Source: Nitrospinaceae bacterium | GTDB lineage: Bacteria > Nitrospinota > Nitrospinia > Nitrospinales > VA-1 | Assembly (NCBI GenBank): GCA_021604505.1 | Contig: BQJC01000001.1 | Span: 186,001 to 250,000, forward strand | DNA: 64,000 bases | Direction of reading: 5' to 3' | In this document: piece by piece, positions 15,197-63,441 of the stretch | Layout of the letters: every line of letters begins with the position of its first letter | How positions within the stretch are numbered: position 1 is the first letter of the stretch | Notes under the pieces: model-generated | The model's database searches: none | Told to the model about the DNA's origin: nothing | Seen by the model: only the letters and a program-made list of their open reading frames with translations | Position numbers and translations under genes: made by a program

Positions 15197-18100
15197 ATGA
15201 AACGTTCCCCGATCATTTACTTTCTCTTCTTCGGTTCCGGCATCACCGCCCTGATCTACGAGATCGTCTGGACCCGGATGCTCACCCTGGTGTTCGGACA
15301 TACGGTATTTTCCGTGTCAGTGGTGTTGGCGGCTTTCATGGCTGGGCTGGGTTTCGGCAGTTACCTGTTCGGGACCGCGATCGACCATTTGACCCGGCCC
15401 GTGGGTCCCGGCAACGAAATTGAGAAGAAGCCTCAGGAACAAGGATTGCAGGGACCGGATCACACCCCTCTCTTGGTTTATGGGTGGATCGAAATCGGTC
15501 TTTTTGTCATCTGCGGTCTTCTTTCATTACTCCTGGCGAATTTTTCCTCTTTTTACGCCTGGATTCATGTCTGGCTCCCGGATTCCATAATCGTCCAAAA
15601 CGCCGTAAAAGCAGTTCTGGCGTTCGTGCTGATTTTTATTCCGACGACACTGATGGGTGCCACTCTGCCGATCATCAGCAAATATTATGTGACCGACAAC
15701 GCCCGGTTGGGGACCCAGATCGGAATTTTATACGGTATCAATACACTGGGAGCGGTGGTCGGATGTCTCCTCACCGGATTTTTATTGATCAGTGTGCTGG
15801 GGGTTCTGCAAACAGTTCTCATGACTGCTTTCGTGAACCTGTTTATCGGAATCAGCGCCATCCGCGTTTACCAGGAATCTGGAGGGGAGGGGACGTTGAG
15901 TGTCCGGCCGCCAAAATTTGCATTTCCTTCACTTTCGGCCAACCCGGAACAAAAATTCTGGATGGGAGTCAGCTTCATTTGCGGTTTCACGGCCCTGGCG
16001 TATGAAGTGGTGTGGACCCGGCTTCTGGTGTTCAGCATTTCCAGCACAGTGTATTCCTTCAGCATGATGCTGGCGGTCTTCCTTCTGGGAATCGTTCTGG
16101 GAAGCTGGCTGGTCATTCCGGTGATTTCACGCGTCGCCAACCTGAGAACGGTCCTGATCTTTCTACAGGTGGGGATCGGTTTGTTCGTGATCGGTTCGCT
16201 TTACAATATGGAGCACCTGCTCTCGCCACCGTGGAACAGTTACCGGCTGACCGACCCTGCGGCCACCTTGTTTCGTTATTTTATGGATTCCTCAAGCCTG
16301 ATGCTGATCCCCACGCTGTTTTTGGGAATGAGCTTTCCTCTGTTGATCAAGACCGTTTCCGGAGGGCACGAACATATCGGACGCGGGACGGGGCAGATCT
16401 ATGCTTCCAACACCCTCGGTGCCATCCTGGGATCGTTATTGATGGGGTTCTGGGTCCTTCCCGAACTGGGAAGTCAGAAAAGTCTGATGCTCGTCGCCTC
16501 GTTGAATTTTCTTCTCGGAATCCTGCTTTTTCTTAAAGGAAATTATTTGGGAGCCGCCGTTCGCCGCGGACTTGCGGTTGCTTTTGCAGCGGTTCTTATA
16601 TTTATAAATTTTGCCATTCCAGGCGATCTTTTGGACAAGTTTTTTATGCGCGACAGTGTCGGGCAGCGCAGCACCAAAGCGCTTCTATATTTCGAAGAGG
16701 GTCTGACGGATACCGTTGCGGTTTTTAAAGATACCTATGGAATCCTGGACCCGGAGGCAAAAAGACTGATCACCAACGGGATATCCATGTCGGCGTCGAA
16801 CGTCATCGCCTCCCGGTATATGAAGCTGTTTGCTCACGTTCCGATTTTATTGGTGGATTCGCCGGAGGACGTGCTCGTGGTTTGCTTTGGCACCGGGCAG
16901 ACCACCGGCGCCGCGGGAATTCATCCCAGCATCCGCTCCGTGGACAGTCTGGATTTATCGCCCAGCGTGATCCGGGCCGGGACCGTCTTTGCCTCGGAAA
17001 ATCACGACGTGCTCAACAATCCGAAGGTGAATATTATTTTGCAGGACGGCAGGAATCATCTTTTGACCACCGATAAAAAGTACGACGTGATCACCTCAGA
17101 ACCCCCGCCTCCACGAACGGCTTTCACTGTCAACCTCTATACAAAGGAATATTACGAGCTGTCCAGGAAGCGGCTGAAACCCGGCGGCATCGTGGCGCAA
17201 TGGATTCCGCTTCACAGCCAGGGCGAAAAAGAAGTCGCAATGCACTTCAAAACCTTCCGCGAGGTGTTTCCCCACGCGCTCGCCTGGATGTCGGTGGCCA
17301 ACGAGATCCTGATCATCGGTTCGGATCAGCCGATCGATTTGGATTTTAAAAAATTGCAACAACGCTTAGAGGAGCCTGTTGTCCGCCAAGCCCTTGCCGA
17401 AATCGAAATACCAGACGCATATTCTTTCCTGAGCAACCTCTGGTTTCTTGAAGAGCAGATCGCAGCGGTTGCAGAAGGTTACGGTGTGATCACCGACAAT
17501 CACCCGGTCATAGAATTTTATCTCGACCTCGGAGCCACGATTGGATTGTCGGGAAAAGAAAAATATGTTTTCAACCGCACTCCCTTTGAGGACATTGCCC
17601 GGCGTATCCATCATCTTTCAGAACAGGACCGTTCGATCCTGAACCGTCATTACCGCATGATGGATCTGTATCAGCGGGGCGTTATGTACAGCAACCGCGG
17701 GCAACTGTTAAAGGCCCTGTCCCTGGTGGAAGACAACAATCTCATTCGTTACCATTTGCAGGCCGGAAAAAATCAGGTCGCCCGTTTGATTCGGGAAGTG
17801 GAAAACGAACCGGACAATATCGAAGCCCTTCTGAATCTCGGTCACGCTTATTATCAGATCGGGCAGTATCAGAAGAGCATCGCTGTTTTGGAAAAAGTTC
17901 CGCCCAATATTCCAAGCCGAAGTTTTGCTGATATGTACGTAGGCTACAGTCTGATGGAATTGGGCCGGATTAAAATGGCAAAGGAGAAATTTGATGCCGT
18001 TGCGAAAAACGATCCCCGTCAAATACGCGTGATGATGCAGGAAGTCGGATTGGTGGAATTATTGAAAAGACTTGAGGAGAACCCGGAAAACCCCGGCCTG

Positions 18101-18466
18101 ATTCTTTCAGCGGCACAGTATTACAATATGAAAAAAGAGTTTTTTAAAGCGCTGGACTATTCATTGGTCGCCCTGGATAAAGAGCCCTTAAATGTTCAGG
18201 TTCTGCAAAGCATCGTGTACAGTTACCGCGGGCTCGGGGAACCCGGAAACGTGCTGGATTACGCGACCCGCTACAGCATGGTGGATCAGGAGGACATGCA
18301 CCTGCAATACATTCTGGGAGAGATGTATGCCAAAACCCTTCGTTGCCAAAAAGCCCTTCCACATTTGGAAGCCGTCCTTAAGAAAAATGATTCCTACCGC
18401 AACACCAACGAACTTCTGGACGGTTGTAAAAATAAAAAAAGCGTAGTGGCGATAGGTTCCTCTTAA
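15197..18466 (+). CDS. Fused MFS-like / spermidine synthase-like / TPR protein
   Basis: 1089 residues. The N-terminal about 480 residues contain two blocks of hydrophobic helices, each beginning with FGSGITALIYEIVWTRML or the related FICGFTALAYEVVWTRLL: an internal duplication typical of the fused MFS/spermidine-synthase family. Residues about 540-760 are a Rossmann domain of the aminopropyltransferase type: glycine loop VVCFGTGQTTGA, SLDLSP in place of the usual E(L/I)DP, ILQDGRNHL, YDVITSEPPPP. About 860-1089 are TPR-like helical repeats. The acidic substrate Asp normally following the aspartate of motif IV is replaced by a Ser-Glu-Pro run, so true polyamine synthesis is unlikely; a methyltransferase-like or regulatory role is possible. 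The start ATG has little leader sequence (TATAAA/TAATAA-like runs immediately upstream). Confidence 0.85.
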   Translation: MKRSPIIYFLFFGSGITALIYEIVWTRMLTLVFGHTVFSVSVVLAAFMAGLGFGSYLFGTAIDHLTRPVGPGNEIEKKPQEQGLQGPDHTPLLVYGWIEIGLFVICGLLSLLLANFSSFYAWIHVWLPDSIIVQNAVKAVLAFVLIFIPTTLMGATLPIISKYYVTDNARLGTQIGILYGINTLGAVVGCLLTGFLLISVLGVLQTVLMTAFVNLFIGISAIRVYQESGGEGTLSVRPPKFAFPSLSANPEQKFWMGVSFICGFTALAYEVVWTRLLVFSISSTVYSFSMMLAVFLLGIVLGSWLVIPVISRVANLRTVLIFLQVGIGLFVIGSLYNMEHLLSPPWNSYRLTDPAATLFRYFMDSSSLMLIPTLFLGMSFPLLIKTVSGGHEHIGRGTGQIYASNTLGAILGSLLMGFWVLPELGSQKSLMLVASLNFLLGILLFLKGNYLGAAVRRGLAVAFAAVLIFINFAIPGDLLDKFFMRDSVGQRSTKALLYFEEGLTDTVAVFKDTYGILDPEAKRLITNGISMSASNVIASRYMKLFAHVPILLVDSPEDVLVVCFGTGQTTGAAGIHPSIRSVDSLDLSPSVIRAGTVFASENHDVLNNPKVNIILQDGRNHLLTTDKKYDVITSEPPPPRTAFTVNLYTKEYYELSRKRLKPGGIVAQWIPLHSQGEKEVAMHFKTFREVFPHALAWMSVANEILIIGSDQPIDLDFKKLQQRLEEPVVRQALAEIEIPDAYSFLSNLWFLEEQIAAVAEGYGVITDNHPVIEFYLDLGATIGLSGKEKYVFNRTPFEDIARRIHHLSEQDRSILNRHYRMMDLYQRGVMYSNRGQLLKALSLVEDNNLIRYHLQAGKNQVARLIREVENEPDNIEALLNLGHAYYQIGQYQKSIAVLEKVPPNIPSRSFADMYVGYSLMELGRIKMAKEKFDAVAKNDPRQIRVMMQEVGLVELLKRLEENPENPGLILSAAQYYNMKKEFFKALDYSLVALDKEPLNVQVLQSIVYSYRGLGEPGNVLDYATRYSMVDQEDMHLQYILGEMYAKTLRCQKALPHLEAVLKKNDSYRNTNELLDGCKNKKSVVAIGSS

Positions 18467-26289: not shown

Positions 26290-26456
26290 GAGTTTTCAAA
26301 CTTTACATGGTGAGAGGACGTCTATTGCATCTAAGATGGTGCCAATCTTCGACCGATTCAACCAAAAAGGATTGATATTGACAGAACCCTCCCTGCCAAG
26401 TAGGATTTTTACCTTGATCCAGCAGTTTTAATTTTTTTCGCGGTTATTGGCACCCT

Positions 26457-26990
26457 ATGTTTGATCCTGTTTATTTCAGCCTGTTTGAAGGTATTCCAGA
26501 GGGTCCGGTCACCATTTTCAATGAAGGGCAGTGGACGCTCGATAACCAGGTCGAGCTTGAGACTTGCATCATAGGGAAAAGTCATCGTGTGACCAGCCGG
26601 GGAAACGGAGTGTCGCTCACAGAATTCATCGCTTGTTCTTCCGGTGAATTGACAGGAAAGTCATTGGATCATTTTCCGCTGAAGCCCGGGAAAACCTATT
26701 CCAAAGAGTATCAAGTGGGAAATATTCAGTATGGGGTAGACATTGAAATGGTTCCCAGTCTGTTTGATGATATGGAGGGTTTTCTGCGCTCCATGGGAGA
26801 GGTTCCTCCCATGAAAATATTGACCCATCGTTTTGAAGCTTCAAAAATTTCGAATGCTACCAAACCCTTTACAGGGGTCGCGGTTGATCCTGCGGCGAAC
26901 CGGTTTTTCACCATTCACACGTATCCTGAAAACAGGTTATCCATCGTCAGTAAAACCTGCCTATTCACTTCAACGGGGGCAACAGCGTGA
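26457..26990 (+). CDS. DUF2617 family protein
   Basis: 177 residues. The CIIGKSHRV...SLTEFIACSSG block, then a strand-rich middle, and the C-terminal FFTIHTYPENRLSIVSKT match my recollection of DUF2617 (PF10936), where GASH and HAYPQ-like motifs occupy those places. In actinobacteria DUF2617 genes lie with DUF4178 and a polyamine aminopropyltransferase. Here it heads an operon with J-domain, YbjN-like, PspA and DUF4178 genes, which supports the assignment. Function unknown. Its stop overlaps the next start (TGATG). Confidence 0.6.
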   Translation: MFDPVYFSLFEGIPEGPVTIFNEGQWTLDNQVELETCIIGKSHRVTSRGNGVSLTEFIACSSGELTGKSLDHFPLKPGKTYSKEYQVGNIQYGVDIEMVPSLFDDMEGFLRSMGEVPPMKILTHRFEASKISNATKPFTGVAVDPAANRFFTIHTYPENRLSIVSKTCLFTSTGATA

Positions 26991-27349
26991 TGTTCAAACG
27001 ATTGGTCGATATCGCGCGCGCCAGTTTAAACGGCTGCATTGACAAAAAATCCGGCGAAAAATTTGCTGAAGGTGCGGCACACGAAACGTCTTTTAATTTT
27101 GCAGAACAGCAAGAAAACCACCGGCCCGAGGAGCCATCAGACCCGTTAGCCCAATATTACGCAAACCTGGAAATCCCCGCAGGGTCGGACCGCGAGGCGG
27201 TGAAGTCGGCCTGGAAGCGAATGCTGAAAAAATATCATCCGGATCTGCACGATGCCGATCGCGAGAAAAGAAAAGTCGCCGATGAATTGACCCGGCGGTT
27301 GACCGAAAGTTACCGTATATTAGATGAAGAACTGTCAAAACGCGAATGA
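26990..27349 (+). CDS. Small J-domain protein in the PspA operon
   Basis: About 119 residues. The N-terminal about 45 residues are without recognisable fold; then PLAQYYANLEIPAGSDREAVKSAW opens a J-domain with the HPD tripeptide (KKYHPDLHDADRE) needed to stimulate DnaK-type ATPases. There are no zinc-finger or client-binding domains, so it resembles type III J-proteins that recruit Hsp70 to one partner. Start: ATG at 26990 overlaps the upstream stop by one base; a GTG at 26987 is also possible. It probably couples an Hsp70 to the membrane-stress module encoded around it, which is inference. Confidence 0.85.
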   Translation: MFKRLVDIARASLNGCIDKKSGEKFAEGAAHETSFNFAEQQENHRPEEPSDPLAQYYANLEIPAGSDREAVKSAWKRMLKKYHPDLHDADREKRKVADELTRRLTESYRILDEELSKRE

Positions 27350-27359
27350 GGAGTCGAGA

Positions 27360-27746
27360 ATGGCCAATTTTGAAAACGTGAAAGAGTATCTGCTGGACAT
27401 GGGGTTCTCCATCGAACAGGAAGATTCCAATGAAGAACTGGTGGTGGTCAACGACGAGGAACGCGGCGTCAACCATCTGGTCGTCGATTGCGAGGACCCG
27501 ATCGTGATTTTAGAACAGGTGATCCTGCCTCTGCCAAAAGGAACGGCTGAGGTGTACAAACGCTTATTGCAGATCAACCGCACACTGGTGCACGGCGCTT
27601 TTGTTCTGGATGATAAAGGCACGACACTTTTGTTCCGGGACACCCTGCAACTGGAAAACCTCGACCGCAATGAGCTGGAAGGCAGTATCGACGCATTGAG
27701 CCTGGCGTTGGGGGAATACAGCGGCGAACTGCTTTCATTCAAATAA
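27360..27746 (+). CDS. YbjN / Tir-chaperone-like small protein
   Basis: 128 residues from ATG at 27360 (GAGGAG eight to thirteen bases upstream); the frame is open further upstream but only inside the previous gene. The body resembles the YbjN or CesT/type III chaperone fold: VKEYLLDMGFSIEQED at the start, then VILPLPKGTAEVYKRLLQIN, RTLVHGAFVLDD, LQLENLDRNELEGSI. YjfI (DUF2170), found beside PspA-like YjfJ in E. coli, has a similar organisation, so it may belong there. Possibly an adaptor for the PspA homologue. Assignment moderate. Confidence 0.65.
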   Translation: MANFENVKEYLLDMGFSIEQEDSNEELVVVNDEERGVNHLVVDCEDPIVILEQVILPLPKGTAEVYKRLLQINRTLVHGAFVLDDKGTTLLFRDTLQLENLDRNELEGSIDALSLALGEYSGELLSFK

Positions 27747-27781
27747 AATTACCGTCATCGACATAAAGGGAGAAAATCAAC

Positions 27782-28492
27782 ATGGCAGGACTACTTTCCA
27801 GAATTTTTAGCTTGGGCAAAGCCGAAGCTCATTCGCTGGTGGACCAGATCGAAGATCCCATCAAAATGACCGAGCAGGGCATCCGCGATCTGAAAAAAGA
27901 TCTGACCACGTCCATGCAAAGCCTGGCGCAAGTCAAGGGCATCGTCATCCGCATGCGTAACGATTCCGAGAACAAGAAAAAACTCGCGGCGGATTATGAA
28001 AGCAAAGCCATGGCGCTCTTGCAAAAGGGTCAAAGCGGGTCCCTGGACATGGCCGAGGCCGAACGCCTGGCGACCGAAGCGCTGTCAAGAAAAGAAACCG
28101 CCGCCAAAGAGGCCGTCCGCTTGAGCACGGAGATGACGGCGCAGGAAAACATGTCCAACCAACTGCAGAAAAATGTCGATAAACTACGGTCCACGATTCA
28201 ACGCTACGAAAACGATCTGATCACACTCAGAGCCCGCGCAAAAACCGCGTCCGCGACCAAAAAACTGAACGCGCAAATCGCCCAGGTCGATGCCGGCGGC
28301 ACCATCGCCATGCTGGAAAAAATGCGCGCCAAAGTCGAAGAGGACGAGTCCCTCGCCACTGCCTATGGGGATATTGCCGACACCAACACCAGCATCGACG
28401 ATGAAATCACCAAGGCCCTCGGCACAGGATCACAACTTCCGGCGGCGTCCGACAGTCTGGCGGCATTGAAAGCCAAAATGAAAATCTCCTGA
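27782..28492 (+). CDS. PspA/IM30 family membrane-stress protein
   Basis: 236 residues, almost wholly helical with heptad-like hydrophobic spacing, as in PspA and YjfJ. The N-terminal amphipathic segment (MAGLLSRIFSLGKAEAHSLV) binds membranes in family members. The coiled-coil hairpin core spans about 30-200, with ENDLITLRARAKTASATKKL in the second arm. These proteins oligomerise and protect the inner membrane under envelope stress. Here it lies in the middle of a five-gene operon and lacks PspBC or PspF partners, so control differs from the enterobacterial system. GGAGA provides a ribosome-binding site eight bases upstream. Confidence 0.9.
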   Translation: MAGLLSRIFSLGKAEAHSLVDQIEDPIKMTEQGIRDLKKDLTTSMQSLAQVKGIVIRMRNDSENKKKLAADYESKAMALLQKGQSGSLDMAEAERLATEALSRKETAAKEAVRLSTEMTAQENMSNQLQKNVDKLRSTIQRYENDLITLRARAKTASATKKLNAQIAQVDAGGTIAMLEKMRAKVEEDESLATAYGDIADTNTSIDDEITKALGTGSQLPAASDSLAALKAKMKIS

Positions 28493-28493
28493 C

Positions 28494-29033
28494 ATGGTCT
28501 TCGATTTTTTTAAAAATAAAAAAGACGAACAACCCAAGCTAGAGGACCTCGTTCTCTCCAAACTGAAACCCGGTTTTCTGGTCGATCGCGACATGAAAAC
28601 CCATCAGGTCCTGGCGCGCAATCACTACAAATGGGAAGAGGGCGGGGTGACCGACGAGTGGGAATTGAAACAGGGGTCCGAATTGTGGTTTCTCGAGCGC
28701 GTGGAAGAAGACGGTGAGGTCGAATGGTCCCTTTGTCAGAAAAAACCCATCTCTCTCCTTGAGGGAGACATCGCCCAACACATCATCAAAAACGAAGACC
28801 CCCCAGAACAGGTCGTTTACGAAGGAGAGACTTTTTATTACGAGACCGATGACATCGGCGAGTATTTTAAAGGCGACGCTAAAGAAGGACTGCCTTTCGT
28901 GGTGTGGGATTACGCCGATGAACAAGGCGAGCGGTTTTTATCCATCGAGCAATGGGGGGAAACCAAATTCGACATGACCATCGGTTTCGATGTCGAAGAG
29001 TACCAGTTCACCAACATCCTGCCTGGGGAGTGA
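28494..29033 (+). CDS. DUF4178-like protein, last gene of PspA operon
   Basis: 179 residues. Begins one base after the PspA stop. The central pattern LKPGFLVDRDMKTHQVLARN, then KWEEGGVTDEWELKQGSELWFLERVEEDG with an aromatic-rich Trp-Leu/Phe strand, matches DUF4178, which is often found near PspA, DUF350 and spermidine-synthase-like genes; YjfK (DUF2491) is an alternative. It is strongly acidic, probably all-beta, with no signal peptide or transmembrane helix, so presumably a cytoplasmic partner of PspA. Function unknown. Confidence 0.6.
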   Translation: MVFDFFKNKKDEQPKLEDLVLSKLKPGFLVDRDMKTHQVLARNHYKWEEGGVTDEWELKQGSELWFLERVEEDGEVEWSLCQKKPISLLEGDIAQHIIKNEDPPEQVVYEGETFYYETDDIGEYFKGDAKEGLPFVVWDYADEQGERFLSIEQWGETKFDMTIGFDVEEYQFTNILPGE

Positions 29034-62679: not shown

Positions 62680-63441
62680 GTGATTTCCCCCGAGGAGGAA
62701 GAACTCAGACTCAAGCGGCGGGATCTGGCTCAATTGGAACAGGACCTTGCCGATAAGGAGTTGGAGCTTTCCACCCTCAATGGAGAGCTTCACCTGTTTG
62801 AAAAGCGCTACCAACTGGTGGTGGGTGCCAAGTATACCGAACTCGACGAGGTGAAAGCCCAGATTCTGGAACTGGCGTCGCGATTGTACCCGCGTTCCGA
62901 TGAATTCAGGGCGGGCGCCCGGTCGGCCCGGGAACGGGCGCAAAGCTCCGCCGAAGGAGCCGATGATATTGAATTGGACCTGCCAAAGGAAGAAGCGTTC
63001 GAACCCACCGAAAATTTAAAAAAACTGTTCCGCGAGGTTGCCAAGAAAATCCATCCGGATTTAGCCTCGAACGACAAGGAGAAAGCCCGGCGGCACGAAC
63101 TGATGGCCCGGTTGAATCAGGCCTACGACCGATTGGATGAGGAAGGGATTCACGCCGTACTTCAGGATTGGGAAGCGGGGGACCAGCCGGAAAAAAAAGA
63201 AACGCTGGGAGTCCGGTTGGTTCGAACCGTCCGGCAAATTTCACAAATTAAAAAGCGTTTGCAAAAGATTGACGAAGAAATGGCGGAGATCAAAAATTCA
63301 GGAATGTATCAATTGATGAATAAAATAGCCACCGCTGGAAAAATAGGTGGCGATATACTTGAGGAAATGGCCGCCAGTGTCGATGAAAAGATAGCTTCGA
63401 TCAAATCCAAAGTACGCGACCTTGCAGGAGAGTTTGATTAA
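62680..63441 (+). CDS. Coiled-coil protein with embedded J-domain
   Basis: 253 residues from GTG at 62680. Residues 1-75 are a heptad-rich helix (LKRRDLAQLEQDLADKELEL), about 105-165 a J-domain-like segment with HPD (LFREVAKKIHPDLASND), and about 180-253 another helical stretch with a coiled-coil pattern (QISQIKKRLQKIDEEMAEIK). Start is uncertain: no Shine-Dalgarno precedes the GTG, while GGAG at 62634-62637 would fit an ATT codon at 62647 giving FKESTSAVTPV- before the same protein. It may recruit Hsp70 to a partner. Next gene is a Sel1-repeat protein 27 bases on. Confidence 0.8.
   Translation: MISPEEEELRLKRRDLAQLEQDLADKELELSTLNGELHLFEKRYQLVVGAKYTELDEVKAQILELASRLYPRSDEFRAGARSARERAQSSAEGADDIELDLPKEEAFEPTENLKKLFREVAKKIHPDLASNDKEKARRHELMARLNQAYDRLDEEGIHAVLQDWEAGDQPEKKETLGVRLVRTVRQISQIKKRLQKIDEEMAEIKNSGMYQLMNKIATAGKIGGDILEEMAASVDEKIASIKSKVRDLAGEFD

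Follow-up and report, generated by a model that had tools for sequence, protein, structure and literature searches.

A putative DnaK-recruiting J-domain protein with a PspA alpha0-like N-terminus encoded in CesT-PspA-DUF4178 operons of Nitrospinota and other bacteria

ATP-driven remodelling of a polymer of the PspA superfamily is exemplified by ESCRT-III and Vps4, the latter being an AAA ATPase. In chloroplasts, VIPP1 is both assembled and disassembled by CDJ2, HSP70B and CGE1, according to a passage of PMC10602608 that cites Liu et al. 2005 and 2007. No homolog of CDJ2 was found in cyanobacteria (PMC3720927), and the Vipp1 protein of Synechocystis binds DnaK2 and DnaK3 (PMC4297356). Among bacterial operons, those encoding CesT/Tir, PspA, DUF4178, spermine synthase and DUF350 constitute a known PSP-type system, as described in the main text of Ravi et al. 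2024 (PMC11237479), and CesT/Tir-like proteins are already-known partners of PspA; that main text contains no mention of DnaJ. The BacA (YjfI/DUF2170)-PspA operon of Pseudomonas (PMC10948618) also places a gene for a CesT/YbjN-fold protein just before that for PspA, although it belongs to the DUF2170 family rather than PF22550, as at the locus described here, and no J-protein is reported there.

The window, a stretch of 64,000 nucleotides from a Nitrospinaceae genome, contains five open reading frames on the + strand that are separated by junctions of -1, 10, 35 and 1 nt (Table 1). An earlier note on this sequence had proposed a five-gene operon with overlapping or nearly touching start and stop codons, and both points hold: all five frames are present and their order is kept in relatives, a conservation which implies that the arrangement is not the product of chance. 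The ATG of the J gene overlaps the stop codon of the DUF2617 gene by one base (TGATG). While the list of open reading frames puts the start at a GTG at 26987 instead, the ATG at 26990 is probably the true start of the gene, as the same start and one-base overlap occur in most DUF2617-bearing relatives. The stretch containing the sigma70-like promoter is shared with L002 and L003, the two nearest relatives. A sigma54-like reading of a TGGCAC half-site at the start of the DUF2617 gene was dropped, the -12 GC being missing by eye.

Table 1. Features of the operon and their coordinates within the window
Feature	Position	Strand	Basis
Sigma70-like promoter TTGACA-17-TAGGAT, 5' of DUF2617 gene	26378-26406	+	10/12 consensus match
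DUF2617 protein, 177 aa	26457-26990	+	Pfam DUF2617 E=1e-7
J-domain protein, 119 aa	26990-27349	+	Pfam DnaJ 5e-9, family alignment A2, AF2 model
PspA-alpha0-like amphipathic segment, J-protein N-terminus (MFKRLVDIARASLNGCI)	26990-27040	+	Two-way matrix tests, hydrophobic moment
J-domain	27149-27343	+	HPD triad at 27236-27244; H, P and D invariant in 39 sequences; fold
CesT/Tir-like chaperone (PF22550), YbjN-related, 128 aa	27360-27746	+	Pfam CesT_Tir_1 E=3e-51
PspA/IM30 family protein, 236 aa	27782-28492	+	Pfam PspA_IM30 E=5e-46
DUF4178 protein, 179 aa	28494-29033	+	Pfam E=5e-18; found in 70/81 PspA loci

The label 'YbjN-like', previously given to the third protein of the operon, captures a relationship to YbjN but not the family, since the match to CesT_Tir_1 is far stronger (173 bits, against 32 bits and E=1e-7 for YbjN). 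The PspA protein is full length and includes alpha0, with the PspA_IM30 (PF04012) match spanning residues 3-233, and is matched by Vipp1/PspA structures. It finds only itself within the 3.64-Mb genome, and its closest relatives come from records named Nitrospinaceae or Nitrospinota, with 92% identity in JAJDAZ010000012.1.

The locus resembles the operons of Ravi et al. in combining a CesT-PspA dyad with DUF4178 in a single operon, as in the second of their groups, and in having relatives with spermine synthase, DUF350 and ion channel genes nearby. It differs in the presence of the J gene before that for CesT and, in Nitrospinota, of a DUF2617 gene before the J gene. The window operon also lacks the adjoining spermine synthase, DUF350 and lipoprotein genes of that second group, a Mur ligase gene following DUF4178 instead. 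At two related loci, L002 and L010, the region 3' of DUF4178 contains spermine synthase and DUF350 genes in opposite orientation, and beyond these come a further open reading frame and a gene for an ion-channel protein (as checked with Pfam in L002), whereas the window locus has no such cassette at that place. In their surroundings, L002 and L010 mix features of the second group of Ravi et al. with those of the third. A gene at 15197-18466, encoding a fusion of an MFS/membrane region, spermidine synthase and TPR (1089 aa), does exist in the window as noted earlier, but its suggested connection to the operon was rejected: some 8 kb separate the two, and the fusion shares only ~25-28% identity with the operon-adjoining synthase of relatives, of which it is not an ortholog. 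Elsewhere, the J-CesT-PspA triad occurs with an ion channel in L073 and has a Band_7 (SPFH) protein directly 5' of it in L045 (3284-4741). SpeD-like proteins (ESH..IHTWPE) are encoded no more than a few kb from CesT-PspA in three loci (L057:1518-1937, L067:5229-5729 and L078:8092-8481), constituting another link to polyamines.

A scan of genome contigs based on PspA yielded 80 loci, or 81 with that of the window, in which neighbouring genes were called with HMMs made for each of the five operon proteins of the window. CesT adjoins PspA in every one, and DUF4178 is present in most. The J gene lies directly 5' of CesT in 27 of the 81 loci, 20 from Nitrospinota and seven from elsewhere: KSB1 (2), Calditrichia, Chloroherpetonaceae, Holophagae, Acanthopleuribacter pedis and Trueperaceae. 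The J-CesT-PspA order is found in all 20 Nitrospinota loci with sufficient upstream sequence, the other two ending near CesT, and also in about 30 genomes from five further phyla. Most CesT-PspA loci outside the J-bearing groups are without a J gene, hence the J gene is not obligatory.

The J-family profile A1 was also searched alone, with a threshold of E<=1e-18, in samples of six phyla. It matched 27/77 in Nitrospinota, one of these being weak and without the alpha0-like part, 11/82 in the phylum of the KSB1 record, 6/40 in that of Calditrichia, 9/296 in that of Chloroherpetonaceae, 3/247 (one weak) in that of Holophagae and 7/111 in that of Trueperaceae. Weak matches without an alpha0-like N-terminus (G011; L102, L103 and L105) were left out of membership; two of these, L102 and L103 from a proteobacterial MAG (G084), contain two tandem J-domain-like segments in one protein. 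This search revealed 30 new loci outside Nitrospinota, one of which was uninformative as the contig ended. CesT is directly 3' of J in 23 of the remaining 29, and PspA is next wherever the contig extends that far. Six loci depart from this pattern: L105 and, in the phylum of the Trueperaceae record, L106 and L108-L111. Near the J genes of those last five, neither CesT nor PspA was found, even when larger stretches were examined. Three of the five (L106, L109 and L111) encode family members that do have alpha0-like N-termini. The linkage of J-domain and PspA genes, on whose recurrence in other genomes the earlier note had staked its proposal, is thus present across six phyla.

One explanation for this pattern is that a spare class C J-protein is merely carried along in a conserved string of genes, performing no work on PspA. 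The patchiness of the distribution is as such passive linkage would predict, and so are the members that stand alone in the phylum to which the Trueperaceae record belongs, yet the triad remains the same in six phyla despite differing flanking genes, and the J-protein has an alpha0-like N-terminus. Furthermore, of 77 Nitrospinota genomes, 25 have both J and PspA, one J only, two PspA only and 49 neither (Fisher p=8e-17, a value that overstates the independence of these genomes, as they are related); the two with PspA only are probably contig-edge effects, as in L005 and L016. Passive linkage is therefore considered very improbable. The distances between J, CesT and PspA proteins are correlated (Mantel, r 0.85-0.91), to a degree that shared ancestry alone could yield. 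A search of the main texts of open-licence papers found no account of a bacterial J-protein linked to PspA, and the J gene apparently represents a new, undescribed co-chaperone subunit of a known PSP-type system.

The J-protein consists of three parts in alignment A2 (n=39): an N-terminal motif, M-x-(x)-R-[LIV]-x-x-[IL]-[AVL]-[RK]-[AS], a linker that varies between members, and a J-domain in which HPD is invariant. In the AF2 model, a helix at residues 3-13 is of low confidence, as is the unstructured region of approximately 14-53, while the helices of the J-domain at 54-118 are confident; the Foldseek matches to this model are J-domains, including the DnaK-bound 5nro. As it has a J-domain with HPD but no G/F, zinc or DnaJ_C domains, the protein belongs to class C. 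No client-binding domain is found in it, which implies that its specificity is set by location.

The N-terminal motif resembles alpha0, the membrane anchor of PspA (PMC12358876), over about 17 residues, as can be seen by comparing the J-protein of L063, MSIFSRLKDIVRANVHA, with the Vipp1 chain in 9eom, GLFDRLGRVVRANLNDLV. A matrix derived from 86 PspA alpha0 windows and slid freely over 57 J-profile matches scores highest at the J N-terminus in approximately 50 of them, with the register unchanged; the median for J is 3.7, against -4.5 for background open reading frames, although the window's own J-protein ranks only in the top 6% of that background. The reverse matrix, from 38 J N-termini, finds alpha0 in exact register as the best window in 114 of 116 PspAs, and still in 110 when built without the Nitrospinota J-proteins. 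By comparison, column-shuffled J matrices do so in a mean of 1.03 and a maximum of 31 of the 116, and matrices from other blocks of the J-protein in 0-4. The hydrophobic moment of the segment from the window (0.52) is above the 95th percentile of the background (0.47) and similar to those of Vipp1 (0.54-0.57). A match between positions 1-21 of Pfam PspA_IM30 and residues 2-22 of the L063 protein was rejected as proof of alpha0 homology, being the sole one among 39 J-proteins and too weak (E=0.025), and the matrix tests were used instead. The likeness between the two N-termini is read as real, and either common descent or the convergence of amphipathic helices could account for it.

On balance, the favoured explanation is that the operon is a CesT-PspA-DUF4178 envelope-stress system with its own Hsp70 recruiter, in which a membrane-tethered J-protein would bring DnaK to assemblies of PspA and CesT. 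That this J-protein directs Hsp70 to PspA had been suggested before, and is still the best reading; what had been missed is the alpha0-like N-terminus, which would serve as an anchor. This segment would insert into stressed patches of the inner membrane bound by the alpha0 of PspA or, alternatively, occupy an alpha0 place inside the PspA coat. PspA could then receive DnaK-ATP from the flexibly attached J-domain, either on its own or in a complex with CesT, which would serve as handover chaperone, and DnaK would assemble, remodel or dismantle the polymer, recycling its protomers. Its task would be akin to that of Vps4 on ESCRT-III, with the difference that the proposed motor is DnaK rather than an AAA ATPase, or of CDJ2-HSP70B-CGE1 on VIPP1. 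As in the chloroplast, the genes suggest a specialised J-protein pairing Hsp70 with a PspA-family polymer; unlike the chloroplast CDJ2, this J-protein is bacterial, of ~120 aa, encoded by an operon-linked gene and equipped with an alpha0-like N-terminus. The cyanobacterial case likewise joins a bacterial Hsp70 to a PspA-family protein, as would the system proposed here, but names no dedicated J-protein, 'DnaJ' being absent from the text of PMC4297356. A wider proposal, advanced tentatively, is that several bacterial phyla possess an Hsp70 branch dedicated to ESCRT-III-like polymers, in which J-proteins carrying a copy or mimic of alpha0 co-assemble at PspA coats and DnaK is the Vps4-like motor.

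The genome encodes one full-length DnaK (G000:C5:22676), with dnaJ downstream, and has 11 J-domain matches; an additional weak DnaJ-like match at 63007-63141 of the window (26 bits) falls under the cut-off. This complement bears on an alternative in which the clients to which the J-protein recruits DnaK are membrane proteins rather than PspA, with PspA and CesT acting as a sub-membrane scaffold at sites of damage where misfolded proteins are refolded or extracted. An anchor and a J-domain without a client domain would fit this model equally, the Band_7 gene in L045 is in keeping with it, and in their main text Ravi et al. (PMC11237479) propose a general assembly-chaperone role for the CesT, band-7 and TPM partners of PspA. 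However, other J-proteins are available for general clients, and the near-perfect co-occurrence of J and PspA, along with the PspA-like N-terminus, points to PspA as the client or dock, making this alternative unlikely. A third possibility is that the J-protein acts on CesT, controlling the delivery or release of CesT-held PspA monomers and hence the supply of PspA rather than its polymer. It accords with the position of the J gene immediately before that for CesT in the order J, CesT, PspA, and with the role of CesT-like proteins in type III secretion, where they hold partners that are not yet assembled (PMC10948618), but is rendered rather improbable by the fact that most CesT-PspA pairs outside the J-bearing groups do without this J. 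In Desulfobacterales, a class B DnaJ (DnaJ and DnaJ_C) is encoded shortly after PspA-DUF4178 (L037:3622-4521 and L038:8308-9153), which is perhaps an independent invention of a J-PspA link.

The first gene of the operon has a narrower distribution. DUF2617, PspA and DUF4178 had been described as genomic associates of one another; the pairing of PspA with DUF4178 is indeed of the known PSP type, but DUF2617 is found beside PspA only in Nitrospinota (18 of the 81 loci), and was previously reported in a variant without PspA. The AF2 model of DUF2617 (pLDDT 88) has AdoMet decarboxylase as its best PDB match in Foldseek (E=0.05; probability 0.89 for T. maritima SpeD), with low TM-scores, and a sequence search of the PDB gave no match. 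Pfam AdoMet_dc matches one of the 18 members (E=4.5e-4), and TIGR03330 weakly (0.09). In hhalign, the H.F...G and HT[YW]PE segments of DUF2617 align with those of three SpeDs from other PspA loci (E=1e-4), while control profiles gave nothing (probability below 0.5%). The Glu-Ser self-cleavage site, E-S-H in SpeD before HTYPE, is absent from all 18 members, meaning that pyruvoyl presumably cannot form. Hence the DUF2617 proteins of the window and L002-L022 probably adopt a divergent version of the AdoMet-decarboxylase (SpeD) fold, from which the self-cleaving serine is missing. A search of the genome for SpeD gave no match. DUF2617 is a candidate sensor, perhaps of polyamines or AdoMet, or a prozyme-like partner, and together with DUF4178 may be a regulatory or metabolic companion of the system.

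The proposed mechanism is in strong analogy with the chloroplast system, and would parallel VIPP1, whose link to Hsp70 came from biochemistry. The polyamine-linked PSP systems would gain an Hsp70 arm as well as a protein with a probable AdoMet-decarboxylase fold, while the alpha0-like N-terminus of the J-protein offers a concrete handle that can be mutated. If the proposal is true, this Hsp70 branch would explain the disassembly of those PspAs that have no AAA partner, with a dedicated, PspA-linked J-protein implying a testable bacterial answer: DnaK.
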